Positions 3,802-30,820 of a stretch of 39,603 nucleotides of DNA are shown here, piece after piece (the stretch's first letter is position 1; each line of letters starts with the position of its first letter). The notes under the pieces are model-generated. The model was not told the origin of the DNA and made no database searches. It saw nothing but the letters and a program-made list of their open reading frames with translations. This stretch comes from a virus, in the IMG/VR virus record IMGVR_UViG_3300031951_000452, positions 1 through 39,603 of that record. One strand, given 5' to 3'. The position numbers and the translations under genes are program-made.

Positions 3802-3817
3802 TTACTGCACTGCACCA
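3791..3817. terminator. Bidirectional hairpin over two convergent stop codons
   Basis: TGGTGCAGTG (3791-3800) and CACTGCACCA (3808-3817) form a perfect 10-base inverted repeat with a 7-base loop. The rightward stop TGA (3799-3801) and the leftward stop TAA (complement of 3802-3804) abut with no spacer and lie at the hairpin centre, so both proteins end in a similar VQ tail. There is no clear T-run on either side. It is suited to blocking both convergent transcripts, though as a classical intrinsic terminator it is incomplete. Confidence 0.6.
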
Positions 3818-6800
3818 TCCTTCACATCAAGCCCGTATATATTCAGGTAATCGATAACGTCTTGCTTCAAACCCTTTGGAGCAGTGCGTAGATATCTGAC
3901 AGACGATGAACTCATCGCCTCTTTAGCTGCTTTCTTGATAGCCAGATCAAAGTCTTTTATCTCAAAGCCTGTGCCTTTTGCGTCGATATTATGCTGCTTA
4001 ACCTGCTGTTTGATTCTGGTCATATCAGCCCTGTTGTTAGAGACAGCAGCCCTACGGTAGGCATCCACAAATTCTTTTTTGACTGCGGCTACATACGCAC
4101 CGCCGCCCTTGGATATGCGAATGACATCATTAGTCTTTGTTGTATCTGCTGGCATGAAGCCAAGTAGACGAAAACCTAGAACCATAGGGCCGACAGTTTG
4201 GAGCGCGACCTTGCCATCAGACGTAGTGACCTTGCCATCTTGGTAGTACACAAGCGTGTCACTAAGCGCACGAACCCCAGCAAACGGAGACTTCCGCATA
4301 ATATCGTTTATCGTTGTGGTATCAGGCTTTAGCCCAACGACTTCAGCGGCATAAGATACAATATCTTTTGCGTTGGTTGCTATACTTGTTATACCGCCAA
4401 CGATAGGTCCGGCAAAGTTTGCGATTTCTCTAATAGGGTCAGAACCATAGTTGAGCGCCCCCGTCAGCGGAATGATATCACCAAACCCTGAGCGGGACGA
4501 TACTGTAGCACCGGTCATCTCGTCAACAAGTCCACGCATGATATACGGTGTGAGTCCCGGTACAATGGAGTTCAGGAACAGCATGACTTCACCTTCAGCA
4601 GACTTCTTTTTGATGTTGAGTGACTGCATCAGGAAGTCAGCAAGGTCGAGCAAGTCATCTGCGAATGGAACACCCTTCAGTCCGCTCAATAGAAGGATTG
4701 TCCCGATCATTGCCGCTTGACCACTCGGTGACAGATTTCTCATCATGCCCAAAGTCAGCACAACAAACTGCTTGTACATAAACAACAGGCTGCCGATCCC
4801 ATCGTAAGCAATTCTTGGGCGGTTGTACATGGCGTACTGGCCCTGTGTCATGTCAATGGTGCGGCTTGTAACAACCCGTGATCTTGCCTGTGCTTCCGAC
4901 TCAGTAAGACCTTCAGCCAGTGCGCGTTCCTTCTCAAGCCGATAGGTAGCAAGCGCAGTGACTCTACGATTGTAGGCTTCTGTGTACGAAAACATAAACA
5001 TGTAGCCGCGTATTCCAGCCTGTACGTTACCGCTGCGGATGCCGCCGCGCTTTGTTCCGAGAAGAGTATTGGCTTCCGATGGCTGTAGAGAACCGGTAAG
5101 TGTTTCACTCAGAAGATACTTGGCCTCATCCTCAGTCATACCGTTGCGGCGTTCACCCGCTGTCCAAGGCTTCTCAACTAGCTTGGTCAGGTAGTCAGAG
5201 TCAGCCAGTTTATAATTACCAACATCCTTACCTGCGATGGACAAGGCTTTGAACGCTTTCGAATACCCATAGCCAAGTCCGTATGAACGAGCCGGATTGT
5301 AGGTAGCCAGATAGTTCAAGCTATGCGTACCAAGGGACAACAAGTTGACCATTGCTGTGGCAACCGAACCGCCTAGTTGCATGGTAACAACTGCTGTTTT
5401 GATGCGCGATACGACAGGTCCACTTAGAGCGTCCTCGACAGCATTCGCCGTATCAAGCTGTTGACCATGCCATTCAATGAGCGCACTGGCTTCGTTAAAG
5501 TAGCTATTGCCCTCACCTTTTGTAGCTACTGTCTTGGCTACCGAACCATCTTCCTTGAGCATATCTACTGCTGGCCTACGCTTAGGAGCCGAGTAAACAT
5601 ATTTATATGCGTAATCATTGTACTCGCGTACTGCCTGTGCCTTCCGAGATGGGTCTTTCTCTGCATCGACTGCGAGTCTTAGGGCTTTCAACTTGCTTGG
5701 CTCACCTTGCCACGCAGATTTATTAAGCATGACAGCATCTGTCTGCCTTCTGTATCTGATCTTTGCCGATACGTGTGAACTTGTTTCTATGTGGTCTGCA
5801 ATGGAGCCAACAACATCAGCGTTAAAACCGGGGTTACCGCTGAACCGTAACCGAGAACGACGTGAATCACCCTGCTTGGTCATAGAAACAACAAGGCGCT
5901 CACGTTCCTGAGGGGTTATGCTGACGTTGTTTCTAGCCAAGTAGTTCACAAAGTTGCTGAAATCTCCTGACTCACCAACGGACCGATTCACAGCAGCCTT
6001 ACCAGACTCTACCCTAAACCTGACCGAAACAGTTTTACCGTCAGAGTTAACGACATCAAAGTCCTTGCCTTCCCATATAGCAGCAAGTCCGTTTTCTTTC
6101 TGCCCAGTCTCTTTGTTTTTGAAACCGTCTATAATCCCGTCAACTTCATCAATAGAGTCAGCCCGTGGAGTTGGCATGACATCCTTGAATGCCTCAGCAA
6201 GTTGTACAGGGTTACCACTTTTATCGTATGCCACAAGGCGAACCTCATACTTCCCCCTATGGATAAGCGGAGCATACGACGTTCTGATTGTTGTCTTGGC
6301 ATCTATCTCAGCGTTACGTGCATCGACTTCCGAGAAGACGCTGTTAGCAATATGTTGTTGAATATCGCCAAGCGCCTTGTCACCCGAAATATTCATACGC
6401 TGTAGAGTGGTTAGAGCAGCACGTACCTTGTCGTACTCAGGAACAGCGAAGATGGTTGCAGCCTTCTCTGTACTACCAGCCTGCGGAGACAACCAATCTT
6501 TCATCTTATCGGTTTTGTAGAAGGCACGGGTTACCTCATACAGGAAATCCTTAGCCAGTGCCGTACTTGCTTCACTAGGTTCTACCTTGTCTGTACCGAT
6601 AGATGATACGATATCGGACTCCAGAATAGACCTGTACTGCTTTATGATGGCTTTAAGTGCAGAGACTTCAGCCTGAGTAGCTGAGGTATCCTCCGGTAAA
6701 AGAGCCTTCACTACGTCGCTGACAAGCTCCGTCTGTTGGTACTGTGCGCTAAGATATGTTTGCTCAAGTTTGTCGAGAGCGGCTTTGTTAACCACTGCCC

Positions 6801-9800
6801 TCTGCTCAAGGTAGATTTTCCAAGCCTTACTGCTCTCGTCTATATTCTCTTGAACTTTTTCCTGAAGTTCACCGAGTGCGTTCTTGATCTCAAAACCTTT
6901 TCTAAACTGGTCGGCAGTCACCAACCCATCAGCCATTACCTGATCAGCAACAGCCTTGTTGAGCGTCGGATACCCGGAACCATTAAGGACAAACAAGCTA
7001 CCATATCCTGTTATGTCACTGTCTTTAGTAGACTGCAGCATATACATACGCGCTTGGGCTAGGTACTGACCTGCCTTAGTAAGATCATCTTGGGATGGGC
7101 CACCGAACACAGACCCCATACCGGTAAACTTGTTCATGTCCTCAAGCTGGCTGATGAGACTACGAGCAAGATTGTTCTGTGCCTTGAACAGGTTATAGAT
7201 TGTAGTTAGACCCTCGCTATGCCGAGCCTTTTGATCCAAGGTTGAGAATATATCCGCAGTGATTTTAACTGCCTGCTGCAATTTGTCGGGGCTTGTGAAG
7301 AAGCTACGCATGTTATCAAGTACAGTAAGATTGTCTCCTACCCGATTAAGACCGCCTGATGCAGCCGATGCAAAAGTAACATCAGAACGGGAGAACATAC
7401 CGTCCATCGCGGTTTGGGTCATATCAGATATCGTGTCGGTAATGCTGTCATTGCTGAAGAAGTTACCTGTGATGCCCCTACGAACATACATACGAGACTG
7501 ATGGATGAGCATACGAGCAGCATCATCGTCGAACTCAAAGCCCATACGGTTCAGTGCATTCTTGATGAAGTTCCACACTCTACGGATTGTAGAGGTATCC
7601 AGTTCAGCGGCCCGCTGTGCCAGTACTTCCTCAATAGCTTCAAGCTTGCTCATACCGTGGAGGTCGATGAGTTCATCAGCCGCGTTACGGACTTCACTGT
7701 CCTGATTATATGCTTGGTTAAGCATGGACTTCAGGTTCGCATCAGACATGATGGACTTAAATCCGAAGTGACCGAGTGCTTCATGGGCCAAGACAAACTT
7801 AAGCTGCTGCTCAGTCTGTACGAAGTCACTGAAGATAATGATATCCTTGCCGAAGGAATATCCAACAGCCTTAGTTGTAGCAAAGTCCCCTGCTTCACGC
7901 GCAGCGTTAGCACGTTCATACAGCTTAGGGTTAGTAGCCTTGAGATCAGCCACGTTCTTAGCCACATGGACAGTAGGGGCGTTAACGAACTTTCTCACCA
8001 TACCAGCAACGAGCATCTTGACTCGTCCGATTACCATAGGCTCAGGGATTGGCGTCCCGTCAAGGCGAAGATACAAACCGCCGCTTTTGTCTTGCCTAGC
8101 TTTAGATGCAGCCCTCAACTGACTAAGGCGGGCTTCTTTGATTTGCTGTTCGCGTGATATAGGATCGGGTTTATTGACAGATTCCTGAACATCCGCCGGT
8201 AGGTCTGTGGCCTTAGCCAGTAGTCCCTTCAGTTCTGGAACAAGGTTGTATGTCTTAGCAAACTGAATCCACTCTTTGACGGACGCAGTTGGGTCTGCTT
8301 TCAGGATACTAGTGATCTTATCTTTAAGAGAAGAGCGAAGCGCCTGTCCTATTGTCTTACCGATACCAGAGTTAGGAGCAGTAGCAGCAATGATATAGCC
8401 GACTGCATCCTCGTCCCCAGAGAAAGCGAGATCAACCATATTAGCCGTAGGTTTCTTGGCTTCAGCAAGACTCGTTGCTTCTGCTAGATCATTTACTACG
8501 GAGCGGGTTGTTACGTTTGTTGCCCGTTTTGGAGCTTCTGTCTGAAGGTTTTCTGAGGGAACGCTTCCCTCTTCCGGTTTTCCCACGGGAGACACCGCCC
8601 CCTGCGGTGTCACTGGAGTTTCTTTGGCCTTAACTTTTTCTAGTGCGGCTTTATTTAGCGCAGCTATATTCTCAGATGTATTTTGTGGGTTTAGGTTTAG
8701 TCTAAATGTAGAGCGCGGTGCCACGCTCTCAATCGCAGCTTTGTTTATAACAACAAACTCGGTCCGCCCTCTAACATCAGTGCCGGAAACAACGCCATAA
8801 CCATCTGCCACGTACTGGTCGATGGTTTCTTTAGACAGACGCGTAATGTCTCTATTGTGTTGTACAATGCGTACTCCGGGGGCTATACGGATATCATATA
8901 CAGCCCCATCTTTGCCAGCATACTCAGTTGCCTGATTATCATTTTCTTCACTGGTGGTATACAAACCCCCATACACGCGCCCTTTTTTACCCTGCTTCAT
9001 CTGGTCTGCTGGTCGGATAATTTGGATGTTGTCCAGAGTAAGGCCCGGTTTACCGCCGTGAACAAGCGTGAGCCCTTCTGGACCAACGACAGTCTCACTT
9101 TTTGCAGCAGGAGTTTCCTTAGTAGGCGCAACAGGCTGCGTCGTAAAATCAAATGCCATTTGAGCAGAAGGATCGTAAGTCTCCTGTTGTACTTGCGGTA
9201 CAGCAAATGCGCGTTCACGATCAGCCATTGCCCTCTGAGACGCAAACTGCTCAGATGTCTGCATAGGTAAGGCAACTTGCCCTTGCCCACGCCGAAGTAA
9301 CTGAGAACCCGGTCGCTGAAACAGTGGGAGCTGTTGAGCAGGGAATGGTTGTGCCTCTGGAATAGCCGTAGGCTCTGGCATAGCCGGAGCGTTATACTGA
9401 TTAATATCCTGCTGCATCTGTTGCTGACGTACTTGTTGCTGAAAGTTGCCAGCCGACTGCAGTCCTGCATTAAAATCTTGCCTAGCGGCTTCCCTAGCGG
9501 CAATAACTGGACCTAATCGTGCAGCCATCAACGGATTAGTAGGAGGAGCGACCTGCTGAGGGATCAGGTTCTGTAACTGCTGCAACATCATATTGCCCTG
9601 AGGCGGTAGGGCAGTCTGAACAGGTTGAGCAGGTAATCTTGGTTGGGTAAGCAGGTTCGGTTGGGCAATACTCTGCGGTGCAGCCTGTGGTACAGGTCCA
9701 GAAGATATATCCCTAAGATTCTGCATCAAGTTTGCTTGACCTTGAGGGATGATAACTGCAGGTTCACCAAGGAAAGCCCTGCGACGATCAGCAAATGGGT

Positions 9801-11265
9801 CCAATGTCGGCAGTGGAGCAGGTGTAGCTGCTTCATTCACAGTTGGCGCAAACATCTGCTCACGACGAGCCTGCATGAATGGGTCAGTTTCACCTTCGTT
9901 GTATCCAGCGTCACCCGGTTGTGGAGGTGAAGGAAGGGCAGGAGTAGCAGTTGGGTCTGGATTACCGCCTGCAAGAACATCGGTAGCCTTACCTGCTTTC
10001 AAACTACCCGGTGTATATATCTGCGCTCCACCACCGGCAACACCACCAATGCCAAAGCCTGCGGCAAAGGCGTTAAGAACACGTAGCTTACCGCTATCGG
10101 AACCGAAGTCCTCATTGGGATTGGCAGCAAGCAGAAGAAGTTCCTGAGCAGCTTCAGTACTACCTTCAAGCAGACCACCGGCAGTACCGCCGACAGCACC
10201 GCGCTTAAGGAGTTCTCCTGCCTTACCGCGTGTCGTTGGTATACCCGCAAAAGCTTTGTTACCTAGTTTTAGAGTACCACCAAAAATCTTATTGGCAAGT
10301 ACAGCCTCGGGAAACAGATCAAGTGCAGCGTATGGAAGACCCCCAAGGATGGCCTTCATTCGATCAGGCTCTCCAGATTCTACTGTCTCGCCATAGATAT
10401 CTGATGCACCCATTGCGTAACTATTAGCAATTCGAGCTGCTGCACCCCCAGCGATACCGGCTGCAGTCTTGAGAACTTTAGTTTCATCTAGGGTAAGTGG
10501 GACGATAGCCTTACCAGCAGCCTTGAGTTCGTTGTTGGTTATGACCTTTGCAGTAATTTCAGCAAGAGACTTCTTAATAGTACCCTTACCAACAAGGCCA
10601 GCGATAACACCGGCTGCACCAGTGGCAGGGTTAATACCGCCACCTGCTGCTGAACCACCAGCATAGCCAATGGCAATAGTAGCCAGATTCTCTAGAAGAG
10701 TTGGGCCAAACTGTGCTAAATTTGCAACAAACCAGTCAGTCACACCGCGCTCAGGAGAAGAACCGATTTCACTGAACGACCTCTGGTATGGCTCAACCTT
10801 AGCTAAGTCCTGTGCCTGTTGTTCTACAATGCTCTTACCCAGTGTTTCAGCACCGGCAAGCTGCAGACCATAACCAGCAAGTTGTTGTAGGTTGTCTACG
10901 CCAATGCCGAAGTTTCGAGTGAGCAAACGCCACGTACTGGGATCAGTAATCTCGCGCACATGACCAAGATATCCAGCAGAATCAAGAGAAACCCAGTCGC
11001 CCTGTGGGGCAGGTCTAGGGGTCGGGTCGTTGAAGTACTCAAGCGACTTAACCTTTTGAGTTTCGTCATCAGCCTTGAACGTGCGCCCGTTCACATAGAA
11101 CGAGTCCAGCGATGGGCTGTACTTAACAGTCGCACTGCCAGTATCCAGAGGCGCATACTCAGGCTGACTAGGCTGAGTAAATTGTGGCATCTGCATATCA
11201 GGTAGCGGCAGCGGTTGGATCGAACCGTAAAGATTTGGGGGAGCAATCAGCGGTTGTTCAGCCAT
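3802..11265 (-). CDS. Giant internal virion / large polyvalent protein, 2487 aa
   Basis: ATG 11265 follows TAAGG. This last gene of the late operon sits directly after the transglycosylase virion gene, the place of the large ejected proteins of podoviruses. The N-terminus is Pro/Gln-rich. Residues about 110-430 hold several Gly/Ala-rich hydrophobic stretches (ENLATIAIGYAGGSAAGGG and others), and about 440-700 is Gln/Pro-rich low complexity. Residues about 730-850 resemble an ADP-ribosyltransferase fold (LVHGG with H736, GGLYTTSEE, RTEFVVIN with E836). HEALGH at 1161-1166 is a zincin-like motif of the kind seen in polyvalent proteins. The middle is helical, and the last 500 residues contain membrane-like helices (FMYKQFVVLTLGMM; AAMIGTILLLSGL). 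It probably enters the host with the DNA, forms part of a trans-envelope conduit and may modify or cleave host targets. Domain names are from motif memory; enzymatic activity is unproven. Confidence 0.75.
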   Translation of the reverse strand: MAEQPLIAPPNLYGSIQPLPLPDMQMPQFTQPSQPEYAPLDTGSATVKYSPSLDSFYVNGRTFKADDETQKVKSLEYFNDPTPRPAPQGDWVSLDSAGYLGHVREITDPSTWRLLTRNFGIGVDNLQQLAGYGLQLAGAETLGKSIVEQQAQDLAKVEPYQRSFSEIGSSPERGVTDWFVANLAQFGPTLLENLATIAIGYAGGSAAGGGINPATGAAGVIAGLVGKGTIKKSLAEITAKVITNNELKAAGKAIVPLTLDETKVLKTAAGIAGGAAARIANSYAMGASDIYGETVESGEPDRMKAILGGLPYAALDLFPEAVLANKIFGGTLKLGNKAFAGIPTTRGKAGELLKRGAVGGTAGGLLEGSTEAAQELLLLAANPNEDFGSDSGKLRVLNAFAAGFGIGGVAGGGAQIYTPGSLKAGKATDVLAGGNPDPTATPALPSPPQPGDAGYNEGETDPFMQARREQMFAPTVNEAATPAPLPTLDPFADRRRAFLGEPAVIIPQGQANLMQNLRDISSGPVPQAAPQSIAQPNLLTQPRLPAQPVQTALPPQGNMMLQQLQNLIPQQVAPPTNPLMAARLGPVIAAREAARQDFNAGLQSAGNFQQQVRQQQMQQDINQYNAPAMPEPTAIPEAQPFPAQQLPLFQRPGSQLLRRGQGQVALPMQTSEQFASQRAMADRERAFAVPQVQQETYDPSAQMAFDFTTQPVAPTKETPAAKSETVVGPEGLTLVHGGKPGLTLDNIQIIRPADQMKQGKKGRVYGGLYTTSEENDNQATEYAGKDGAVYDIRIAPGVRIVQHNRDITRLSKETIDQYVADGYGVVSGTDVRGRTEFVVINKAAIESVAPRSTFRLNLNPQNTSENIAALNKAALEKVKAKETPVTPQGAVSPVGKPEEGSVPSENLQTEAPKRATNVTTRSVVNDLAEATSLAEAKKPTANMVDLAFSGDEDAVGYIIAATAPNSGIGKTIGQALRSSLKDKITSILKADPTASVKEWIQFAKTYNLVPELKGLLAKATDLPADVQESVNKPDPISREQQIKEARLSQLRAASKARQDKSGGLYLRLDGTPIPEPMVIGRVKMLVAGMVRKFVNAPTVHVAKNVADLKATNPKLYERANAAREAGDFATTKAVGYSFGKDIIIFSDFVQTEQQLKFVLAHEALGHFGFKSIMSDANLKSMLNQAYNQDSEVRNAADELIDLHGMSKLEAIEEVLAQRAAELDTSTIRRVWNFIKNALNRMGFEFDDDAARMLIHQSRMYVRRGITGNFFSNDSITDTISDMTQTAMDGMFSRSDVTFASAASGGLNRVGDNLTVLDNMRSFFTSPDKLQQAVKITADIFSTLDQKARHSEGLTTIYNLFKAQNNLARSLISQLEDMNKFTGMGSVFGGPSQDDLTKAGQYLAQARMYMLQSTKDSDITGYGSLFVLNGSGYPTLNKAVADQVMADGLVTADQFRKGFEIKNALGELQEKVQENIDESSKAWKIYLEQRAVVNKAALDKLEQTYLSAQYQQTELVSDVVKALLPEDTSATQAEVSALKAIIKQYRSILESDIVSSIGTDKVEPSEASTALAKDFLYEVTRAFYKTDKMKDWLSPQAGSTEKAATIFAVPEYDKVRAALTTLQRMNISGDKALGDIQQHIANSVFSEVDARNAEIDAKTTIRTSYAPLIHRGKYEVRLVAYDKSGNPVQLAEAFKDVMPTPRADSIDEVDGIIDGFKNKETGQKENGLAAIWEGKDFDVVNSDGKTVSVRFRVESGKAAVNRSVGESGDFSNFVNYLARNNVSITPQERERLVVSMTKQGDSRRSRLRFSGNPGFNADVVGSIADHIETSSHVSAKIRYRRQTDAVMLNKSAWQGEPSKLKALRLAVDAEKDPSRKAQAVREYNDYAYKYVYSAPKRRPAVDMLKEDGSVAKTVATKGEGNSYFNEASALIEWHGQQLDTANAVEDALSGPVVSRIKTAVVTMQLGGSVATAMVNLLSLGTHSLNYLATYNPARSYGLGYGYSKAFKALSIAGKDVGNYKLADSDYLTKLVEKPWTAGERRNGMTEDEAKYLLSETLTGSLQPSEANTLLGTKRGGIRSGNVQAGIRGYMFMFSYTEAYNRRVTALATYRLEKERALAEGLTESEAQARSRVVTSRTIDMTQGQYAMYNRPRIAYDGIGSLLFMYKQFVVLTLGMMRNLSPSGQAAMIGTILLLSGLKGVPFADDLLDLADFLMQSLNIKKKSAEGEVMLFLNSIVPGLTPYIMRGLVDEMTGATVSSRSGFGDIIPLTGALNYGSDPIREIANFAGPIVGGITSIATNAKDIVSYAAEVVGLKPDTTTINDIMRKSPFAGVRALSDTLVYYQDGKVTTSDGKVALQTVGPMVLGFRLLGFMPADTTKTNDVIRISKGGGAYVAAVKKEFVDAYRRAAVSNNRADMTRIKQQVKQHNIDAKGTGFEIKDFDLAIKKAAKEAMSSSSVRYLRTAPKGLKQDVIDYLNIYGLDVKDGAVQ

Positions 11266-11274: not shown

Positions 11275-13722
11275 TTATTGAATTCTTAATCCAGCGGAGC
11301 CTGGAATTGCAACTGATACGAGTTTAGGACTAGTCGGCATAACACTACCGTCAGCCGCAATAATTTCACCTGCCGGTTCAAGCATAAATAAGTTTTCAGG
11401 ATTACCTTTTCTATAGAACACAGATGTATCCCCGACCTTAGCTGCTACAAGTTCTCCGCTAGCAACTTTGGCATCGATTTGAGCCTGCGTTACTTTTTCA
11501 GAGATCGTATTAAAAAGTGTGCGAGATAGCTGATCGGCTGTTTCAAGTCGTTTAAGATTACTCTTAAGTGTTTCTTCACCGATAAGTTTGTCACGCGCAG
11601 CGGTAGCAGCGGTTACTTCAGCAGCATACTTCGGATCAACGATCTGCCTAAACAAGCTAGCGGCTTCGCCTTTAGAATACATCTTTACCCCACCATTAGC
11701 GTCGAGTTCAGGGTTATACTCATTTGTCCCCTGTCTCCTGTTAAGCATGGCGTAGCTACCATTAGCAAGTTGTTGGATTACCATATCTGTGCCAGCAAAC
11801 CGGTTAAGTGTATCATTAAGATCAGTCACGTTACCGCTTGACGAGAAATCTCGTATGCTATTTTGGATTTTAATATTCCAAAGCCCAAGATCATGTACAC
11901 GAAGATTGGCACTGATTGCTTCGTTTGCGCCTTTTATTTTTAGATCGTAGTTTTGAGCAAGAGCGTTTATTTCTGCATTTGTGCTTTGATTCAACGCAAC
12001 AAGTTCGCGCTGAAGCTGATTAACCAGATTGCCATTGCGACTGGCTCGGGCAACCTCAATATCTTGACCTATCTGCTCTGCTTTAATGAGGTAGGCTTCT
12101 CTAATTCTAGCATCTTCTTGTGCTGTGTACTTCTGAAACAACTCAACATCGCCTGTAGCTTTAGAAACATAATCACTTCTAGCAGCCCCGGCATCCCTGA
12201 GAGAAGCTTCAATTTCAGCCTGCGGCCTATTCAAAATTTGGGTTACCGGATCAACCTTAGTAGGTGCTTTAACCCCAGCTTCAAGAGCAGTACTCTGAGT
12301 AGTAGGAGAGGCGATACTAACGGCAGTACCCTGAGCAGGACCCTGAGCAGTACCCTGAGCAGGAGCGGCAGCGGAAGTATTAGTATTTAATCCAGCCGCA
12401 CCGATGTCTTTGAACCCGCCCTGTGCAAGCTGGTTAAATAGGCCAATACCTACAGTGTTGTAGTCCCTAGTATACATACCATATGGCTTGCTAGTTTTAG
12501 GGTCTGTACCAAAATCTGAAAGACCCCCGGGGATTTCACCTCGGTCAAATGCGTCGTAGCCCGGACCGGCGTGGTACATAGCAAAGATAATATTTGCTGC
12601 GCGATTAGGGTAAGACTGCTGCAAATCTTTAAGATATAGGACGCCAGCAGTAGCCTGCTGGTCAGCAGTCAAAGCTACTTTAGTATCCCATGAGTACGTA
12701 ATTGTGCCGTCTGCATTTTTAGTACCGCGAGCAGCCATAGGTAGTGAAGCAGCCAACGCCCTTAAAGCAGGGTCAGATGACTTCATAAACTTCTGCCGAG
12801 TGGCTTCATAAGTTCCGGGGATTACTTGCATAACACCCTTAGCCCCTTTTGGGCTGTCTCCAGTCTCAGTATTAAGATTAGATTCCATAACACCGACGGC
12901 TAGCGCAATCTTAGGATCAACACCCGCCTTTCTAGCGGCCTCAATAATAGCTTTTGCCCCCGGAGGCATTTGTGCTGGGTCAGTAATACTTAAAATCTTA
13001 GCCATAGTCTGCGATGCGCCAGCAAGTCTCTCATAAGCAGATTGGGAAATAGGTTCCCCATTAACAAGAACTGTATTTTCTGGAGGGGCTGATTGGAATG
13101 TACTAAACATTCCGCTTTTGTTACCGGTTGTAACTTTTTTACCAAAAACAATCCCGCGATAGGCTTCCGCCGCCTCGTTTGTTCCCGAGGTAGGGTATGC
13201 ATATCCGGCAGCCTCAAGTGCAGCCTGTTTCTCAACCTGTGCTTTAAGTAGGGCCGCTTCTGTTGCTTGTTGGTCTGTTACAAGTTGATTTTTAAGACCG
13301 GCAGTTTGAGAATATGGTGACGCCACATAAGAACCCTGAGGGCCGGGTACATTTGTATAGACAAGAGGTTCTTGAGGGTTATTTATTTCAGACTGCGTTA
13401 CAGCGAGAATAGGCGCTGCTGCAGGCGTTTGAAAAGGTACGTTATTATACGAAGGATTTTCCAGAGATAGACCGGCAGGTGTAGGCCGCCCAAGCAAAAT
13501 AGCATTCTTTGCTGCGTTTGCTCTAGCTGTTTCTCTAGCCTCTCCCAACGACCGTTGGCTTTGTTCAAAAGTTGTTAGATTAGTTAGGTTGGTCGCAAGG
13601 TCCACAGGAAAGCTACCGACCTTCGGTGCGTTCGGGTCAACCGGTTGGCGATTAGTAAAAGCAGCCGACGACCCTTGGTTCGCAGCCCCATATAGATACC
13701 CAAAATCTGCAAGACCAGCCAT
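11275..13722 (-). CDS. Internal virion protein with lytic transglycosylase (SLT-like) domain
   Basis: ATG 13722 has an excellent site, TAAGGAG with 6-base spacing, formed by the stop of the upstream gene. Residues about 255-400 are a soluble-lytic-transglycosylase-type domain: AIIEAARKAGVDPKIALAVG leads to VMESNLN with the presumed catalytic Glu at 280. KGVMQVIPGTYEAT and a later AMYHAGPGYDAF match the usual GLMQ and Y-N/H-AG signatures. The N-terminal 250 residues are Ala/Gln-rich and disordered-looking. The C-terminal half is helical and charged with a short repeat (AQGT/AQGP). It should cut murein during DNA ejection, like the transglycosylase ends of podovirus internal core proteins. It lies between the 487-residue core candidate and the giant protein, so these three likely form the ejected core. 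Confidence 0.85.
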   Translation of the reverse strand: MAGLADFGYLYGAANQGSSAAFTNRQPVDPNAPKVGSFPVDLATNLTNLTTFEQSQRSLGEARETARANAAKNAILLGRPTPAGLSLENPSYNNVPFQTPAAAPILAVTQSEINNPQEPLVYTNVPGPQGSYVASPYSQTAGLKNQLVTDQQATEAALLKAQVEKQAALEAAGYAYPTSGTNEAAEAYRGIVFGKKVTTGNKSGMFSTFQSAPPENTVLVNGEPISQSAYERLAGASQTMAKILSITDPAQMPPGAKAIIEAARKAGVDPKIALAVGVMESNLNTETGDSPKGAKGVMQVIPGTYEATRQKFMKSSDPALRALAASLPMAARGTKNADGTITYSWDTKVALTADQQATAGVLYLKDLQQSYPNRAANIIFAMYHAGPGYDAFDRGEIPGGLSDFGTDPKTSKPYGMYTRDYNTVGIGLFNQLAQGGFKDIGAAGLNTNTSAAAPAQGTAQGPAQGTAVSIASPTTQSTALEAGVKAPTKVDPVTQILNRPQAEIEASLRDAGAARSDYVSKATGDVELFQKYTAQEDARIREAYLIKAEQIGQDIEVARASRNGNLVNQLQRELVALNQSTNAEINALAQNYDLKIKGANEAISANLRVHDLGLWNIKIQNSIRDFSSSGNVTDLNDTLNRFAGTDMVIQQLANGSYAMLNRRQGTNEYNPELDANGGVKMYSKGEAASLFRQIVDPKYAAEVTAATAARDKLIGEETLKSNLKRLETADQLSRTLFNTISEKVTQAQIDAKVASGELVAAKVGDTSVFYRKGNPENLFMLEPAGEIIAADGSVMPTSPKLVSVAIPGSAGLRIQ
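12324..12359. repeat. Three 12-bp in-frame tandem repeats
   Basis: CAGTACCCTGAG, CAGGACCCTGAG and CAGTACCCTGAG lie head to tail within the transglycosylase gene. On the coding strand they give AQGT-AQGP-AQGT, a flexible linker between the SLT domain and the helical C-terminal half. The 12-base unit keeps the frame, so length can vary by slippage. Confidence 0.75.
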
Positions 13723-16625: not shown

Positions 16626-16964
16626 CTAGTTTTGTAATTGCCCGATTAAGACGTTCAGCACCGCTTTGATATATGCAACGTCACCAATAAGCGTATTCAC
16701 GTCAGTTAGCAACTTTCCATAGTCCTCTAAAGACGGTACATCACTCCCCGATATTGTAAAGCCTGAACCTTGTGCGCTTGTCTGTTGGATAGACAGTTCA
16801 CCTATCGGCTGTACAGTAACCTGCCCGCTAATAACAGCTTCAAATCCGGTAACACCGCGCTGTCCAGTAAGCAATTCAACATTCTGCTTCACCCCATTGA
16901 GGAACTGAAACTGCCATTCCGGTACACCGACCTGCGGCACTGGTGGTAAAGCTGCGTAAGTCAT
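16626..16964 (-). CDS. Conserved small tail-associated protein, 112 aa
   Basis: The ATG overlaps the TGA of the tail nozzle gene by 4 bases (ATGA), so it is probably co-translated. The sequence starts TYAALPPVPQVGVPEWQFQF and continues with a helix NGVKQNVELLTGQRG, a beta-rich middle, and a C-terminal helix (YGKLLTDVNTLIGDVAYIKA). This pattern recurs after the nozzle gene in related phages, from memory. The C-terminal heptad-like helix could trimerise. It ends with TAG, which also begins the TAGGAG ribosome site of the next gene. The function is unknown; a tail needle or nozzle plug role is possible. Confidence 0.55.
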   Translation of the reverse strand: MTYAALPPVPQVGVPEWQFQFLNGVKQNVELLTGQRGVTGFEAVISGQVTVQPIGELSIQQTSAQGSGFTISGSDVPSLEDYGKLLTDVNTLIGDVAYIKAVLNVLIGQLQN

Positions 16965-19381
16965 GTCGTCCTCAAGCCAAACGGTGTCTCACCAACGTGA
17001 ATTGCCCTGATACGCGCAGAACCGGTCACAGCAAACTCGAATGTATCTGACCGATATCCCGGTGGCAGGCGGAATATGTCGGAGTTAGACACAGTGACAT
17101 TGCAGACAAGCTGCTTATTAGCCCACAACCTGAAGGACACAGGGTACGATCCCGTTACTTCTTTAAGAGCAGTCGTATTTATCGGTGTGTTAGCCGTTAT
17201 GTTTTGAGCATAGGCAGCAGTAATATCGGGTGTAAAGAATGGATCACCGTTTACCTGCATAGTGTTAAGAGCACCTGAGGTTGTTAGGGTGGCGCTTGTT
17301 GGACCATTCAATGTACCGAGTTCCGTAACCAGTGCGAACAGAGCCGTGTTAATGGTCGGGACCAATAGATTATTAGCAACGATAATTTCAGTATCTTCAC
17401 TTGGCGTTGAGTAGTCGCCAACAACACGCGCAGCACCGAGGTTTATATAGTCCTTGGTGACGATCACCTTAGACTTCCACTCAAGTGGCTGGAGTTCTGT
17501 GCCTAGTTTATCCCATTCAGACAACGTGCCGGACTCGTCTGAGATGTAGTAGAACCTGTTGTACTTACTATCATAATAGGCAGTGGAAAACTCTATCGGG
17601 GTATCGATAAAAAACCCACCGACCTTATCCTCGCGTTCAAAGATAAATGATCCGGCGGAATGGGATGCAAAGTACTTACCCGCATAGAACGACGCAGTTA
17701 TGGTAGTAGAATCTAACTCACTACCCCATGCTTCCCAATCATAAACAAGTTTAGTTACGATATCGATACCGGCGGACGGGTTGTAGATGCCAAGTCCGCC
17801 ATAGGTAGGGAACACAACGCCATACCCTACGTTTACAACTCCACGCTTAGATGTGCATGGGAACGGAGCATCAATACGCGCAGACGCCATGTTAGCTGGT
17901 GTACTACCACTGACAAGATATGGATAGTTGTCTGTCAGGACGATAATAGACCCGGCTATGGGGGATATGGCAACAATAGGCGAATCAAAGATAAGACGGT
18001 ATTTAATAGGCCAAGCCCAAGGTTTCCCGGGTTCAGAGAAGCACAACTCGTTACCGACAAAGCCAGCTAGGATATTGTTCTGGGCAGTAATAAGCCCCTT
18101 CATATCTGCGTCTGGGGCGTCGTAGTACAAAGATGATAATAGGGTTGTCAGACCATTCACATCGTAATCATCTGTGAACGAGGAACCTTCATAGTATCTG
18201 GAATCGGTAGTCTCTGGTTCCGAAACATCCCAGTAAAGAGTACCTGCGGTACAAGCTGTGGTAGCTTTAGTTGATCCAGCAGCGATATAGGTAAACGTAT
18301 ACTCATCCACTACAGACTGCACGGTTACATCAGTTACATCAAAAGTTGCGTCAGCACCCGTACTAAAAGTAGTCCCGGATATCTTGATCTTGTCGCCAAC
18401 GAGAAGGTTGTGATGTTCGGATACCTTCATCGTTACAGTGTTGGATGTACGTGATGCCTGTACCAAACTAAGCGGGAACCAGACTGTCCTCACACGGAAG
18501 TAATCTGTGCCTGAACTAGAGGTGATAGTGCGATACAACCTGAACCCAGTTATGAAATTGTCACCGGCAGGGGCTGCTGTTGGTAGGTTAGTTACAGTTA
18601 TAGTCTGCCCTTCTTTCACATACAGCGTCTCGGACAGATCACTAGGTACAGATTCTTCACCCCAAGGCGTTACCCACGTATAGATATAGTTACGTGTGTT
18701 TGTATTACCGGCGAGGTTTGCAGTTCCGTCTGATTCAGAAGTCGTCCCTACTGCCGTGCCGACGCTGTAGTATGTAAAGGTGGTATCATCTATAACAGTA
18801 ACTTGGGCATTTGTTATATTGAACAACTTACCAACGGCGGATGTAAACCCTGCTATGGTAACTTTCTGCCCAGTATTTAGATCATGGTTACCGGAAGTGA
18901 CGATTGTAGCAGTATTACCGGAGTCTCTAGCATACGACACAATAGTCTGTGAGCTATAAGATGTAGCCGTTGTCACTGGTATCGTAGTCGGTAGTGGGAG
19001 TCCAAGATCATAGTACGCCGCTGGATATACGCCGCTACCATCGACAGCCAGTGCGTAGTTTGTTACCTTCGGAACTCCGTCACCGGTATAATAGATTCGC
19101 TGTTCTTCGTCATTTAGGGTGGTTGTGATAGCAACATCAACATCAGTAGTCCACGACAGCCAACGGTTAATCGTAGGGTCACTCGTATCCCGCATAGGGT
19201 AAATAGTTTTGATATTGCCGTTCCTATTAACGCTACCTACGACTGTTGGTATGCGATACGGAATCAAGTCACCGGAGGATACTTTAGCATTGGACGCAAT
19301 TTGAGCAGCAGCATCTGGTAGCAACTCAGGACTAATCCTAGGTGCTTTCCCTAAAAACTTACTGACTTTAAATGCTGTCAC
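16961..19381 (-). CDS. Tail nozzle / DNA-stabilisation-like protein, 806 aa
   Basis: The start is GTG 19381 with GGGG 7 bases upstream. The N-terminus (FLGKAPRISPELLPDAAAQI, then NAKVSSGDLIPY) has the pattern of podovirus tail tube B/nozzle proteins, which begin with a line about a lattice or pump of parameters from all genes. Residues about 230-260 (TNTRNYIYTWVTPWGEESVP) and 420-560 form beta-propeller-like repeats typical of the family. Two copies of a beta module are inserted at about 150-225 and 305-385, each with a [S/E]xHxLxxGxKxxIxGxT core and an ending TFTY. It should close the short tail and bind fibres. It lies after the endolysin and before core genes. Whether it is closer to T7 gp12 or P22 gp10 cannot be decided by eye. 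Confidence 0.7.
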   Translation of the reverse strand: MTAFKVSKFLGKAPRISPELLPDAAAQIASNAKVSSGDLIPYRIPTVVGSVNRNGNIKTIYPMRDTSDPTINRWLSWTTDVDVAITTTLNDEEQRIYYTGDGVPKVTNYALAVDGSGVYPAAYYDLGLPLPTTIPVTTATSYSSQTIVSYARDSGNTATIVTSGNHDLNTGQKVTIAGFTSAVGKLFNITNAQVTVIDDTTFTYYSVGTAVGTTSESDGTANLAGNTNTRNYIYTWVTPWGEESVPSDLSETLYVKEGQTITVTNLPTAAPAGDNFITGFRLYRTITSSSGTDYFRVRTVWFPLSLVQASRTSNTVTMKVSEHHNLLVGDKIKISGTTFSTGADATFDVTDVTVQSVVDEYTFTYIAAGSTKATTACTAGTLYWDVSEPETTDSRYYEGSSFTDDYDVNGLTTLLSSLYYDAPDADMKGLITAQNNILAGFVGNELCFSEPGKPWAWPIKYRLIFDSPIVAISPIAGSIIVLTDNYPYLVSGSTPANMASARIDAPFPCTSKRGVVNVGYGVVFPTYGGLGIYNPSAGIDIVTKLVYDWEAWGSELDSTTITASFYAGKYFASHSAGSFIFEREDKVGGFFIDTPIEFSTAYYDSKYNRFYYISDESGTLSEWDKLGTELQPLEWKSKVIVTKDYINLGAARVVGDYSTPSEDTEIIVANNLLVPTINTALFALVTELGTLNGPTSATLTTSGALNTMQVNGDPFFTPDITAAYAQNITANTPINTTALKEVTGSYPVSFRLWANKQLVCNVTVSNSDIFRLPPGYRSDTFEFAVTGSARIRAIHVGETPFGLRTT

Positions 19382-19385: not shown

Positions 19386-19985
19386 CTACCCCGTAAACTT
19401 AGTGTAGGCGGCTGCTAGCTTAACATCATATTGGTTCTTTGCATAGCCGGGACCATTATAACCTTTAGCAAATCCCGCCCAATCCAGTGCTTGCATTTTT
19501 GGTAGAAGACCAGATGTTTTGATGAATCCCGCCATATGACGCAACTGGCTTACCTCAGCATCCATAGCTTGCTTAACCATTTGATCGACTGAAGCGCATC
19601 CTACCATCTTAAAGTTAGAACCCATGACTTGGCCTAACCCCCAAGATGTTGACAGGAGTGCTGCGTCCGCGTCGATATCATAAGCCGCAGCAATCTCCGC
19701 ATACACAGCGTCTGACCCCTTTGGGTATGGCTTCTCCCCCCACTTAGGGTATGCAAGTCCCATAGCGACGGCCTGATCCAACTCAACAGGTTTTGCCTTG
19801 AGGTGCTTGAAGAAGTGATGGCGCTCAAACAAAGCTTTAGGACGCCCAGCTTTGTCAAACCCAGAACCGGCAGACTCCACAGAGAGGACAGCACGAAGAG
19901 CGGCCTCCTCAACACCGATCTCTGCTGCTACGGTAGCGACATCTTCTGGCTGCATAGGTAGTGCAGCGCCCTTAAAACCATCCAT
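19386..19985 (-). CDS. Endolysin, N-acetylmuramidase (DUF3380-like)
   Basis: ATG 19985 is preferred because AAAGGA lies 6 bases before it; an ATG at 19991 overlaps the holin stop but has no spacing from that site. The protein of 199 residues matches the N-acetylmuramidase family throughout: VLSVESAGSGFDKAGRPKAL then FERHHFFKHL gives the two acidic residues near 37 and 54. GLGQVMGSNFKMVG and AFAKGYNGPGYAKNQY-like segments (here DWAGFAKGYNGPGYAKNQYD) complete the fold. It cleaves glycan strands at lysis. It lacks a signal peptide, so it needs the holin encoded just upstream. The family usually has about 170-270 residues, so this is a single-domain full-length member. Confidence 0.88.
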   Translation of the reverse strand: MDGFKGAALPMQPEDVATVAAEIGVEEAALRAVLSVESAGSGFDKAGRPKALFERHHFFKHLKAKPVELDQAVAMGLAYPKWGEKPYPKGSDAVYAEIAAAYDIDADAALLSTSWGLGQVMGSNFKMVGCASVDQMVKQAMDAEVSQLRHMAGFIKTSGLLPKMQALDWAGFAKGYNGPGYAKNQYDVKLAAAYTKFTG

Positions 19986-19987
19986 CG

Positions 19988-20515
19988 TCATTCCTTTGGT
20001 GTCGAGTTATAAATCATCTGGTCTTTCTTCTGAGAGCCGGACGAAGAGCCGAAGTAGAAAGCAATGATGCCGCCCCAAGCTGTTTGTAGTGCGCCGAGGA
20101 GTAGCAGCAATGCCTCATTCCCTGTTGTCGGTAGTCCATAGATCAGTATGTAAATCATAATAGAGAAAAATCCAACTGTAACTCCGATAGCCAAAGCCCG
20201 TGGAATCCAGTCTTTTGTTTCTTTCTGCATATCGCGGGCAGAAGCACGATCATCAGCAGCGATGCGTTCTAAATCAATGTCGAGGCTTTTCATTCTGACT
20301 TTGAAATCGGCGTCAATTTTCTTGACTACCGAAAGCTGCTCAGGGGAAGCCGATGATAGAGCCGCAGAGAGTTCTTCCGCAGTTCCATTTTCATTACCCA
20401 GCAACGCTTGAGATAAAGCCTTCACACCCATACCAGCAAGCGGACCGCCGAGCGCGGTAGCAATACTAGGTGCAATAGAGCCGAGTAGCGGCCCGAATGT
20501 TTTAAGTAGGTCCAT
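19988..20515 (-). CDS. Holin (3TM superfamily-like), 175 aa
   Basis: ATG 20515 has GGAGG with a 5-base spacer; the start overlaps the previous gene by 14 bases. Residues 1-35 are an amphipathic Gly/Ala helix (LLGSIAPSIATALGGPLAGM). A charged stretch with KKIDADFKVRMKSLDIDLER follows, then DDRASARDMQKETKDWIPRA. Two membrane helices come next (about 118-142 and 147-168), ending in a basic tail GSSSGSQKKDQ. This is the layout of the phage Holin-of-3TMs family. It should permeabilise the inner membrane and release the muramidase encoded immediately downstream. Confidence 0.8.
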   Translation of the reverse strand: MDLLKTFGPLLGSIAPSIATALGGPLAGMGVKALSQALLGNENGTAEELSAALSSASPEQLSVVKKIDADFKVRMKSLDIDLERIAADDRASARDMQKETKDWIPRALAIGVTVGFFSIMIYILIYGLPTTGNEALLLLLGALQTAWGGIIAFYFGSSSGSQKKDQMIYNSTPKE

Positions 20516-20756
20516 CTTTACCTCCGGTTGATTTGGAACCAAGCATGATTCCAGATAGTGTTCCTGTCAGGAATGTTGCGATTGGGGCGATTAACTTGAA
20601 AAATTCTTGGTCGTTTGGAGCCTGCCCATCAATCGGCTGTACAACAAATATCAGGCTGTAGAGCACTGCAAAGACGGTTCCAGTTAAGGTCAAGCACAGG
20701 CTGATGCCAATGACGAACTGGAGAAGGGCGTGGAGTTCATCCTCTTTAATTCTCAT
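20502..20756 (-). CDS. Small two-helix membrane protein, possible holin partner, 84 aa
   Basis: ATG 20756 overlaps the preceding stop as ATGA and has GGTGG 4 bases upstream, which favours it over an upstream ATG. Two membrane segments are clear: about 11-38 (FVIGISLCLTLTGTVFAVLY) and about 55-76 (LIAPIATFLTGTLSGIMLGS). The N-terminus is charged and the tail is short and polar. Next to the holin and muramidase it could be a second holin or antiholin. No family name is certain. Confidence 0.6.
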   Translation of the reverse strand: MRIKEDELHALLQFVIGISLCLTLTGTVFAVLYSLIFVVQPIDGQAPNDQEFFKLIAPIATFLTGTLSGIMLGSKSTGGKDGPT

Positions 20757-20935
20757 CTTGCCACCGATCCGCATGGATTTCGTTTTAACGTATCAGCAGT
20801 ACACGTTCCAGATGCGGTGCAGATAGGTGGATTGCACTCGGCACTGTCCCAGTTAGCAGGGTCTTGACACGGGTATCGGTAGCGGTCTTCGCACCCTGCC
20901 AAAGCAATTAGCGTGATGATAAGAAAGTATTTCAT
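20753..20935 (-). CDS. Small cysteine-rich lipoprotein, possible outer-membrane spanin
   Basis: ATG 20935 overlaps the upstream stop as ATGA. Residues 1-15 (MKYFLIITLIALAGC) are a lipoprotein signal peptide with lipobox LAGC and the lipidated Cys at 15. The mature part of 45 residues holds five further Cys (for example YPCQDPANWDSAECNPPIC), so disulfides in the periplasm or outer membrane are likely. In a lysis cassette a short lipoprotein suggests an Rz1-like o-spanin, with the upstream 156-residue membrane protein as possible partner. However, the Pro content is lower than in Rz1, and the upstream protein has its membrane helix at the wrong end for an Rz. Confidence 0.6.
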   Translation of the reverse strand: MKYFLIITLIALAGCEDRYRYPCQDPANWDSAECNPPICTASGTCTADTLKRNPCGSVAR

Positions 20936-21402
20936 TTTTGGGTAAACACCACCATCCCGATACCGACACATACAGAGAACAATATAACTGCACCGATTAA
21001 CCAAAGACCCATAATCAAGTCTTTGCGGTTTTCCTCAGCTTCTTTCATTGCTGCTGCGGCTTGACGAGCCGCCTCTTTCCTCATTTCGGTAACCTCTTTT
21101 TGGATAGAGGTCCACGCAGCGATGCCATATGCACCTACAAATAAGTTGCGGGTATCCAACTGAAGCTGCTGTGCTTTAGCCTTAAGCGTATATAACTTTA
21201 TGGCTTCGGCTTCATACTCAGCTTGAGATTGGAATAGTTTTTTCTTTCGCTTACCTGATGTAAGTTGAGTGATCTGGGCGATACGCCCAAATAAACTACC
21301 AACCTTTTCGGCAACATCCAACATCTCATGGCCGGAATCTACAGCACCTTTAATGCCGTTATACAACGCCGTAGCTCCAGCAATGAGAGTGAATGGGTCC
21401 AT
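20932..21402 (-). CDS. Membrane-anchored coiled-coil protein of the lysis block, 156 aa
   Basis: ATG 21402 begins one base after the TGA of the tiny upstream gene. Residues 1-50 are a Gly/Ala amphipathic region (PFTLIAGATALYNGIKGAVD). Residues about 52-125 are highly charged helix (KRKKKLFQSQAEYEAEAIKL; later KEAARQAAAAMKEAEENRKD). Residues about 130-152 are one membrane helix (LIGAVILFSVCVGIGMVVF) close to the C-terminus. Its helical stalk next to a lipoprotein gene recalls a spanin, but orientation would be reversed. A membrane-tethered lysis regulator or superinfection protein is equally possible. Confidence 0.55.
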   Translation of the reverse strand: MDPFTLIAGATALYNGIKGAVDSGHEMLDVAEKVGSLFGRIAQITQLTSGKRKKKLFQSQAEYEAEAIKLYTLKAKAQQLQLDTRNLFVGAYGIAAWTSIQKEVTEMRKEAARQAAAAMKEAEENRKDLIMGLWLIGAVILFSVCVGIGMVVFTQK

Positions 21403-21403
21403 A

Positions 21404-21562
21404 TCACATCTTCTTCTTCATCTTTGGCTTAACCATGCCGCCTTTTTTCATACCGTATTCCATCTTCTCTTTCATAGGCGTCTCTTTGCCTTCATGCTTT
21501 TTCATCATACCTTTAGATGAGTACTTCTCTTTACCGCCGTATTCCATGATCATCTTAGCCAT
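21404..21562 (-). CDS. Very small Lys/Met-rich protein, 52 aa
   Basis: Read directly from the gap between two larger genes: ATG 21562 four bases after the upstream stop codon, GGGG about 8 bases before it, TGA at 21404-21406. The product is 52 residues with about 17 Lys and 12 Met, starts MAKMIMEYGGKEKYSSKGMM and ends MKKGGMVKPKMKKKM. It repeats the MEYG motif (near residues 6 and 34), and its GGMV tail recalls the GGMV motifs of two larger structural proteins in this phage. It fills the gap exactly with 1-3 base spacing, which supports it as a real gene. The function is unknown; a nucleic-acid-binding or assembly peptide is possible. Confidence 0.65.
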   Translation of the reverse strand: MAKMIMEYGGKEKYSSKGMMKKHEGKETPMKEKMEYGMKKGGMVKPKMKKKM

Positions 21563-21565
21563 AGT

Positions 21566-21745
21566 TCAAACCCCTTTCATAATTATAGTAGCGAGTATGC
21601 CAGCCATACCTAGGATCAATGCTGCGGCTGCGTTAAGCATGATCTTCTCTAACCTATCCACACGCGTTATAAACGTATTGTAACGTTCTGCACAGACCGC
21701 TTCATGTGTAAGGAGCTGCTTTTCAATTTCTGCTGAGGTAGCCAC
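21566..21745 (-). CDS. XhlA-like small membrane protein, 59 aa
   Basis: The best start is GTG 21745: AAGGAG ends 6 bases before it, while two in-frame ATGs just upstream fall against or inside the ribosome site. The site itself is built from the stop codon of the fibre gene (TAAGGAG). The N-terminal 35 residues are charged helix (SAEIEKQLLTHEAVCAERYN and RVDRLEKI). A single membrane helix follows (AAAALILGMAGILATIIM). This is the topology of XhlA-type lysis-associated proteins. A role as holin accessory is inferred from that and from its neighbours. Confidence 0.6.
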   Translation of the reverse strand: MATSAEIEKQLLTHEAVCAERYNTFITRVDRLEKIMLNAAAALILGMAGILATIIMKGV

Positions 21746-21755
21746 CATCATCTCC

Positions 21756-23093
21756 TTATACATAGACTGTAACAATTACACGACCGTTGCCGCCAGCGCC
21801 GCCGTTGCCAAGTTCTGAACCTCCCCCGCCACCGGCAGGAGTTGTCCCGTTGGAACCAGTACCTGAATCTGTAGCGCCGTCCCCGCCGCTTCCGCCGTAT
21901 AGACTAGTACCGCGAACAGAACCGTTGTTGGCTTGTGAACCGTTGTACCCTCCGCCGCCTCCGCCGCCACCAAAAACAGCAAAGCCGCCTGTACTTTCAG
22001 TACCGGATACAGCACCGCCATTTCCGCCGCCTCCGCCTCCGCCTCCAAATACGCTACGGGCATCATTGCCAAAGCCCCAAGGAATATTACCGACTGCGGC
22101 TGCGGCTGTTGCTGGGAAGTCTGTATATGCTGTGTTGAGAACACCGCGTTGAGTAGAAGTAGCCACAGCACTTCCTGAACTATTAAACGCCCCATGCCCT
22201 CCGCCAATAGCACCGCCAGCTCCGGGAGAAGTTGAAGTCCCGCTAACTCCGGCAGACATCTCTCCGCCGCCTCCGCCTCCGCCGCCTCCAACAGCACCGC
22301 CTCCGCCGCCCCCAGCGTAAGCGGTTACGTAAGCACCGAATGTAGTATTCTCTCCGGCGGTTCCGGCTGTATTAGATGCTGCTGAACCCGCTCCGCCTCC
22401 TCCTACAACGACAGATACAGTTGATGTCACGTCAGCCAAACTCATCCAGCGTTCAAGATACCCACCACCGCCACCGCCGCTTCCGCCTCCACCTGAAGCT
22501 GCTCTACCTCCGCCGCCACCGCCGCCCCAGCATTGGATACGTATAAGAGACCCGGCACTTGTGGGTTTAGTCCAAGTCTGGGTAGCGCCTGAAGTTGTGA
22601 ACGCAAAAGTATCTGTCTGGACGATACCGTTTGTCTCGGTGAGTGCTGTGATTCTACCTTTAGAATTTATAGTGGCTGTGAGGAACTTACCTAAACCACC
22701 GACTGGACCGATTGCACTAACGATATTATCCAGCTTACCATTTGTTACAGACAGGTCTGTATAGTCCGCAGTGATAAGAAGCCGGTTTGGTAGTTCGTTA
22801 AATAGTGCAGCCACTGGGCGGAGTTCTACTCTGTCACCTGCAGTAAACGTAGTTGCTGTCGTACCATCTTGACTACGAACGATTGTGAATACGTCAGTCG
22901 ATCTATCAGTAACTTTTACAATCTCGGTAACGCCGCTGGACTTGATAAGAGTAACATAAAAGTAATTACCGGAAGCAACAGACGCAGATGGAAACCTAGC
23001 TCCATGACCAGAAGCCACGGTCATGGTTGTGGCTACAGAGGTTAACGCGCTGAAGAGCGTACTAAAAGCATTATTGGCTACTTGGACGCCCAT
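21756..23093 (-). CDS. Tail fibre with glycine-rich receptor-binding domain
   Basis: ATG 23093 follows GGAG with 7-base spacing. Residues 1-100 are the anchor module shared with the two other fibres (VANNAFSTL, TVASGHGARFP, VFTIVRSQDGT, GDRVELRP). Residues about 100-185 are a linker ending in WTKPTSAGSLIRIQCWGGGG. The rest is dominated by long Gly runs of up to ten separated by short polar turns. Such Gly-rich domains occur at fibre tips and adhesins of other phages, where polyglycine-type helices pack to expose variable loops. It is the most likely host-recognition tip of the particle. The GC-rich Gly codons make a run of CCG/CCT repeats on the other strand that is prone to recombination or slippage. 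Confidence 0.8.
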   Translation of the reverse strand: MGVQVANNAFSTLFSALTSVATTMTVASGHGARFPSASVASGNYFYVTLIKSSGVTEIVKVTDRSTDVFTIVRSQDGTTATTFTAGDRVELRPVAALFNELPNRLLITADYTDLSVTNGKLDNIVSAIGPVGGLGKFLTATINSKGRITALTETNGIVQTDTFAFTTSGATQTWTKPTSAGSLIRIQCWGGGGGGGRAASGGGGSGGGGGGYLERWMSLADVTSTVSVVVGGGGAGSAASNTAGTAGENTTFGAYVTAYAGGGGGGAVGGGGGGGGGEMSAGVSGTSTSPGAGGAIGGGHGAFNSSGSAVATSTQRGVLNTAYTDFPATAAAAVGNIPWGFGNDARSVFGGGGGGGGNGGAVSGTESTGGFAVFGGGGGGGGYNGSQANNGSVRGTSLYGGSGGDGATDSGTGSNGTTPAGGGGGSELGNGGAGGNGRVIVTVYV

Positions 23094-23097
23094 TAGA

Positions 23098-24422: not shown

Positions 24423-24486
24423 AGTGATTCCTTATCACAGATAGACAGTAAGGCTAATAGTTTTTAGTTTGTTAAGTTCCATCAGA

Positions 24487-27825: not shown

Positions 27826-27826
27826 G

Positions 27827-28273: not shown

Positions 28274-28283
28274 AACAAACCTC

Positions 28284-29077: not shown

Positions 29078-29085
29078 GCTGACAC

Positions 29086-30392: not shown

Positions 30393-30394
30393 AT

Positions 30395-30628: not shown

Positions 30629-30641
30629 CTGTTAGTCCCTT

Positions 30642-30815: not shown

Positions 30816-30820
30816 TTTGC

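Follow-up and report, generated by a model that had tools for sequence, protein, structure and literature searches.

The virus record IMGVR_UViG_3300031951_000452, analysed over its whole length of 39,603 bases (the window), encodes a giant protein of 2487 residues, and we propose that residues ~722–852 of this protein form a small, self-contained ADP-ribosyltransferase (ART) domain. In what we consider the probable reading, the domain depends on nicotinamide adenine dinucleotide (NAD), is of the H-Y-(Y)-E type, travels as optional cargo of an injected protein and acts on a host component. The assignment of residues ~722–852 to the ART fold holds at the level of a predicted structure, and comparison with other phages showed that the domain is an optional in-frame cassette in two lineages. 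The elements on which the argument turns are as follows.

3802..11265, minus strand: open reading frame (ORF) of the giant polyvalent-type protein, 2487 residues, last gene of the minus-strand (late) run
8671..9102, minus strand: ART-fold domain as modelled, residues 722–865 with a core of ~731–850, assigned by AlphaFold2, structure matches and a profile link
8712..9123, minus strand: cassette block without counterpart in siblings; 412 nucleotides (nt) here and 25 nt in the sibling L135, a difference of 387 nt or 129 codons by BLAST boundaries

The AlphaFold2 model of residues 722–865, built from a 15-row alignment (A2), had a predicted local distance difference test score (pLDDT) of 82.9 and a predicted template modelling score of 0.76, its weak spots being a K-x-x-K-x-G-R loop and the C-terminal tail. 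Foldseek returned 379 matches from the PDB at E ≤ 10, four of them at E ≤ 0.001. Among the 50 listed, 49 were ARTs, including all of the first 36; the only exception was a Toxoplasma conoid protein at rank 37. Diphtheria toxin, as its isolated catalytic domain, headed the list (E 2.7e-4), and exotoxin A, cholix, PARP1, tankyrase and MbcT came after it. VIA-align gave the same picture, in that all 50 listed entries were ARTs or ART-fold toxins, with a best Z of 9.6 (root-mean-square deviation (rmsd) 3.5 over 119 residues) and Z of 7.8–7.9 for NatT, ParT and the anti-CRISPR 6kyf. In the BFVD structure search the domain's own family ranked first, and then came proteins named ART-PolyVal-like (E 3e-5). 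As a specificity control, another part of the giant protein, its HExxxH...EE region, was taken through the same steps and returned no ARTs. By the first-pass annotation of this DNA, a confident structure lacking the split-beta ART fold would have spoken against its reading; the opposite was found, namely a good-confidence model whose listed PDB matches are, with the exception given, ARTs.

These match lists also bear on what such an enzyme would act upon. That the domain is an active enzyme of ART fold but modifies no protein, being instead an NADase or NAD phosphorylase or acting on nucleic acid or nucleotides, seems to us unlikely, though it keeps an appreciable share of our belief. The structural matches include the toxins NatT, ParT and MbcT, which have the ART fold, and some phage ARTs may degrade NAD+, according to one account (PMC9503650). 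The best structural and profile neighbours, however, are protein-modifying ARTs and phage ART-PolyVal domains, a fold likeness that does not settle the substrate; for ART-PolyVal domains, modification of host proteins is predicted by Iyer et al. (PMC5512222).

The proposed H-Y-(Y)-E enzyme is further supported by its conserved residues. Alignment A2 comprises the window and 14 of the 25 loci found by a profile scan of IMG/VR; the remaining 11 were left out as the same virus, near-duplicates or, in one case, truncated. Its rows are partly dependent (L023 and L025 are 98% identical), and identities reach down to 26%. Twelve positions are identical in 15/15 rows: H736, G737, R751, K760, G762, G767, Y769, Y782, R809, G828, D830 and G833. 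Those of greatest interest, with the loop mentioned above, are located as follows.

9058..9060, minus strand: H736, predicted NAD-binding histidine on strand 1, 15/15 rows
8977..8997, minus strand: conserved K-x-x-K-x-G-R loop, residues 757–763, mostly below pLDDT 50 in the model
8959..8961, minus strand: Y769, predicted strand-2 tyrosine (GG-[LF]-Y), 15/15 rows
8920..8922, minus strand: Y782, second conserved tyrosine, in the helix after strand 2, 15/15 rows
8776..8778, minus strand: D830, invariant acid ahead of the E836 strand, 15/15 rows
8758..8760, minus strand: E836, candidate catalytic glutamate, 14/15 rows

In the model, H736, Y769 and E836 lie on predicted strands 11–17, 47–51 and 114–118, and, as judged from the alignment, the residue pattern is an H-Y-(Y)-E arrangement. 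The K-x-x-K-x-G-R loop is the most lysine/glycine-rich of the conserved loops and may become ordered only with NAD or target.

The motifs quoted in the first-pass annotation are found where it placed them, LVHGG from residue 734 (H736), GGLYTTSEENDNQATEYAG from 766, AVYDIRIAPG from 788 and RTEFVVIN from 834 (E836), all within 8716–9078. Its location of the domain (8716–9078, residues ~730–850) is right, with ~722–852 as better limits and ~8712–9123 as the block absent in siblings. It picked out H736, E836 and the GG-x-Y block together with the A..YA helix after it, and conservation does fall on these residues. It had named the H-Y-E and R-S-E types together: the family is H-Y-E-like, while the R-S-E type (Alt/VIP2) was rejected, the strand-1 residue being H736 and not arginine in 15/15 rows, and conservation of Y782 and D830 is no lower than that of the residues it singled out. 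Composition was also considered, and a recent foreign origin of the domain is unsupported by it, its GC content (0.493) being nearly equal to that of the giant gene (0.492).

The same annotation had predicted a link to the ARTs of phage polyvalent proteins. This was borne out by profile–profile comparison, but not as membership of Pfam ART-PolyVal by the cut-off. When A2 was compared with ten phage ART-PolyVal domains (alignment A3), hhalign gave a probability of 97.5 (E 5e-12, score 74.4, 119 columns), and a repeat run locally under different column settings returned 96.9 (E 2e-10, score 65.0); the maximum over 200 column shuffles was 20.6 and the reversed profile scored 11.9. The alignment pairs VHG with YHG, matches the Y block and A..YA, and sets GRTE-FVVI against the equivalent ART-PolyVal strand. 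A weak signal was visible in single sequences, where at E up to 10 ART-PolyVal was touched by 8/15 family members (best E 5.7e-4), and the best homologue against PF18760, that of Pseudomonas phage PspYZU01, reached 16.7 bits (E 3.5e-4), below the cut-off. A second, over-cut-off ART-PolyVal domain occurs in the same kind of protein in 4/16 relatives' records, and where both could be placed (L023, L029) it directly follows the domain of the window type. Three PHROGs families were matched by the domain: phrog_32895, whose function is unknown, phrog_15406, a DNA methyltransferase family, and phrog_10089, which is DarB-like antirestriction. Each of them is very long and multidomain.

Several results weigh against an active H-Y-(Y)-E enzyme. 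First, Pfam gave no ART match with either the window domain or the whole giant protein, and the window domain did not match PF18760 (ART-PolyVal, curated cut-off 31.2 bits), above which the positive control, Roseovarius podovirus 1, did score. Second, PDB-chain sequences were searched with three queries (window domain, A2 profile, standalone homologue), and no ART was found, only chance-level or unrelated hits. Third, the best VIA-align Z (9.6) exceeds the 7–8 often reached by unmatched models only moderately, and we have therefore placed weight on the uniformity of the match list. Fourth, the aspartate of the YDG motif, present in 10/10 sequences of A3, aligns with G824 and is thus absent from the window domain. 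This residue is taken to be the strand-5 aspartate of the H-Y-D triad by which ART-PolyVal domains are described in PMC5512222, so that the window domain does not carry that triad; the aspartate is not conserved in the window family. Fifth, E836 is replaced by glutamine in L031 and in Arthrobacter phage Atuin (the L031/L005 branch). Sixth, the K-x-x-K-x-G-R loop is poorly modelled, leaving several conserved residues unfixed. The last three points would also suit a domain that retains the ART fold without being catalytically active, or that only binds NAD or ADP-ribose, for example as a decoy titrating NAD-derived signals. We hold this to be improbable, since H736, Y769, Y782 and D830 never vary, and E836 persists in 14/15 rows, among sequences as little as 26% identical, which is hard to explain without a binding or catalytic role.

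That the proposed ART is cargo follows from the phages that do without it. A search with the HExxxH region found close relatives (L055, L056) in which this region is 99–100% identical and the preceding stretch 80–87%, with no ART, and an ART profile search of this sibling group found the domain absent in 14/15 records, the exception, L008, being the same virus as the window. At the DNA level, both siblings (L134, L135) align at 93–94% up to window base 8711, where the alignment stops with a sharp edge in both; at the other edge it resumes in a variable linker at 77–86%, with further small indels there. The length differences by BLAST boundaries, 387 nt for L135 and 408 nt for L134, are both multiples of three. 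The pattern recurs among phiARM81mr-like phages, where the domain is found in 4/38 records: between L137, which has the ART, and L138 and L139, which do not, both sides align at 79–93% DNA identity, and the differences of 558 and 447 nt are again multiples of three. The absence counts (14/15 and 34/38) include fragments, the slot itself having been inspected only in L134, L135, L138 and L139.

Since siblings lack the domain, it is not essential to ejection and is cargo rather than a required ejection part. Although the region lies within a likely ejection protein, it is thus very improbable that it is a structural element demanded by the ejection apparatus, a view largely refuted by the otherwise colinear sibling proteins that lack it, in frame, in two lineages. 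That the segment is an assembly chimera, as its absence from two near relatives might suggest, is hardly credible, given that another, separate contig in IMG/VR (L001/L008), with 99.7% identity over ~19 kb, has it at the same place with the frame intact, and that homologues are embedded in like proteins of isolate phages.

Repeats that might have served recombination at the cassette edges were sought, and those found (one 11-nt pair at 91% and one 12-nt pair at 83%) were unconvincing. Eight proteins of distant relatives were examined for other cargo at the slot; ahead of the HExxxH region, Pfam showed no over-cut-off domain in any of them. One distant giant protein (L074) contains, besides the HExxxH region, ART-PolyVal, LPD39 and a stretch resembling YkuD that stays below cut-off. 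A literature search, partial in coverage, found no report of this ART cassette.

The ART family itself is spread over diverse phages. With residues 712–890 as query, tblastn detected it in 16 phage records, the best match having E 4e-39 and 56.7% identity. Six of the records are of Klebsiella Lastavirus type, six Salmonella 7-11-like, two of Pseudomonas phage PspYZU01, and one each of Aeromonas phage phiARM81mr and Arthrobacter phage Atuin; the 25 loci of the IMG/VR scan include L008. The plasmid collection held no match to the domain, and a bacterial genome scan yielded one true relative (Novosphingobium sp. Leaf2) among 14 candidate stretches, hence no broad host signal. In most homologues the domain lies within a larger protein, from 1,670 residues to over 4,000 in length, and in PspYZU01 it is a complete, standalone gene of 121 residues. 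By pairwise BLAST, it is the sole region common to the window protein and most homologue proteins; SopranoGao and F116 additionally share its C-terminal region, and phiARM81mr its HExxxH stretch. The giant gene of Salmonella phage 7-11 (L053) is annotated as several ORFs and is a single ORF in SE131 and pSal-SNUABM-01 (L136, L003); the split may be real or due to sequence errors.

In the 2153-residue Novosphingobium protein (L044:5514–11975), the ART domain sits between two halves of a zincin-like HExxH region. Aligned separately to L024, the flanks matched segments 1098–1166 (score 192; best of 100 shuffles 54) and 1170–1266 (score 277; best shuffle 57), which are contiguous in L024. In the domain tree, the window domain grouped with the Lastavirus, 7-11 and phiARM81mr types (support 98/97), whereas the nearest relatives of the window's portal are those of Rhizobium and Roseobacter phages, at 33.9% identity and below. 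This difference between domain tree and portal kinship suggests, as far as sequences can tell, exchange between phages.

The setting of the giant gene fits an ejected protein. A single minus-strand run comprises terminase, portal, head, tail fibre, muramidase, internal virion protein, SLT protein and giant genes, in which the following features are of relevance.

19386..38713, minus strand: remainder of the late run, with muramidase, tail fibres, major head protein, portal and terminase large subunit
16961..19381, minus strand: internal virion protein (phrog_511, E 1.1e-116)
11275..13722, minus strand: transglycosylase (SLT) protein, likely ejection protein (PF01464, E 3.7e-9)
7486..7983, minus strand: HExxxH...EE region (H1161, E1162, H1166, E1212, E1213), residues 1095–1260, putative metallopeptidase
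3910..5409, minus strand: PLxRFG C-terminal region, residues 1953–2452 (NCBIfam NF032893, E 2.2e-36, 125.6 bits, cut-off 100)

The position beside the SLT and internal virion proteins, together with the PLxRFG end, fits an ejected giant protein, which is probably injected with the phage DNA. Unrelated ART-fold, HExxxH...EE and PLxRFG regions are united in its one ORF, as in polyvalent proteins. The stretch N-terminal to the ART domain is rich in Pro/Gln/Ala (45% over residues 430–714, 22% overall), consistent with a tethered cargo, and residues 1–711 found no match in the phage collection. From its motif, the HExxxH...EE region looks like a metallopeptidase, and we take the motif to resemble that of M49 peptidases. 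HE, the second H and EE are kept in 27/27 aligned viral sequences, and the region is widespread in phage giant proteins; its model gave PPEP-3 as the best Foldseek match at E 0.5, with none at E ≤ 0.001, and a best VIA-align Z of 5.0 to a CARD. A DUF927/primase-helicase-like gene (919–3801, plus strand) converges on the giant gene, the two directly abutting tail to tail.

Taken together, we infer NAD binding, catalysis, a host target, and virion packaging and injection for the ART domain, along the following lines. The giant protein would be made late, packed into the virion and ejected along with the DNA. In the new host, the ART domain would bind NAD+, with H736 and Y769/Y782 around the nicotinamide, and E836, perhaps with D830, would serve as catalytic acid. 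Early transfer of ADP-ribose to a host component would then help takeover or block a defence. In its boldest form, the injected ART possibly has an anti-defence role, a reading by analogy, because the optional pattern resembles that of the T4 internal proteins and because AcrIF11 is a small phage ART that disarms a defence. We would also raise, tentatively and with more doubt than conviction, a wider possibility: that the giant ejection proteins of short- and long-tailed phages unrelated to one another offer a place for interchangeable anti-host cargo, a slot into which the ART family plugs, gained and lost in frame and occurring nested or standalone, with strain-variable defences rather than core machinery as targets. 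Cargo so aimed would explain how siblings manage without the ART.

ARTs within phage polyvalent proteins are already known (Iyer et al. 2017, PMC5512222), and their presence in injected giant proteins is an established prediction. The present analysis adds a distinct ART subfamily, so far unannotated, with an H-Y-(Y)-E/D pattern and in-frame optional behaviour. Phage-injected ARTs are predicted to be common, and few targets are known. The phages described here provide natural matched pairs, in each of two lineages close relatives that do and do not carry the same ART, together with a standalone version of 121 residues, and the benefit of an injected ART to the phage thereby becomes testable on hosts with different defences. 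The cassette also shows that giant ejected proteins are assembled from removable parts.

Among known systems, ART-PolyVal (PF18760) shares with the window domain the kind of host protein, homology across 119 aligned profile columns and the H and Y motifs, and the two sometimes stand side by side in one protein. Unlike it, the window domain has no Pfam match and no YDG aspartate, and has the invariant D830, an RGRTE block and the K-x-x-K-x-G-R loop. Diphtheria-type ARTs and PARPs, for which H-Y-Y-E is called canonical in PMC12421852, are the best structural matches (Z 9.6), and the window domain has the histidine, two tyrosines 13 residues apart and the glutamate on a late strand. The likeness is one of motif and overall fold, however, with no match at the sequence level, and the window domain is embedded in a giant protein of a phage. 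AcrIF11 is a small ART of phages and plasmids by which type I-F CRISPR is disarmed. Like the window domain it is a compact phage ART fold of one domain (6kyf in the structural list, Z 7.8, rmsd 3.1 over 101 residues), and in size it is close to the 121-residue standalone homologue. It differs in that no sequence match was found and its residues are described as H-F-H-D (PMC12421852), and likeness of fold does not show a shared target. T4 Alt, a head-packaged ART injected with the DNA according to PMC5512222, is the model for how the window domain would work, although Alt is of the R-S-E type and the first residue of the window family is histidine in 15/15 rows. Finally, the T4 internal proteins Ip1–Ip3 (PMC12373910) are separate small genes with a packaging signal, neither giant-protein domains nor ARTs. 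Nevertheless, as non-essential, variable, injected inhibitors of host restriction, they offer the model for optional injected cargo.
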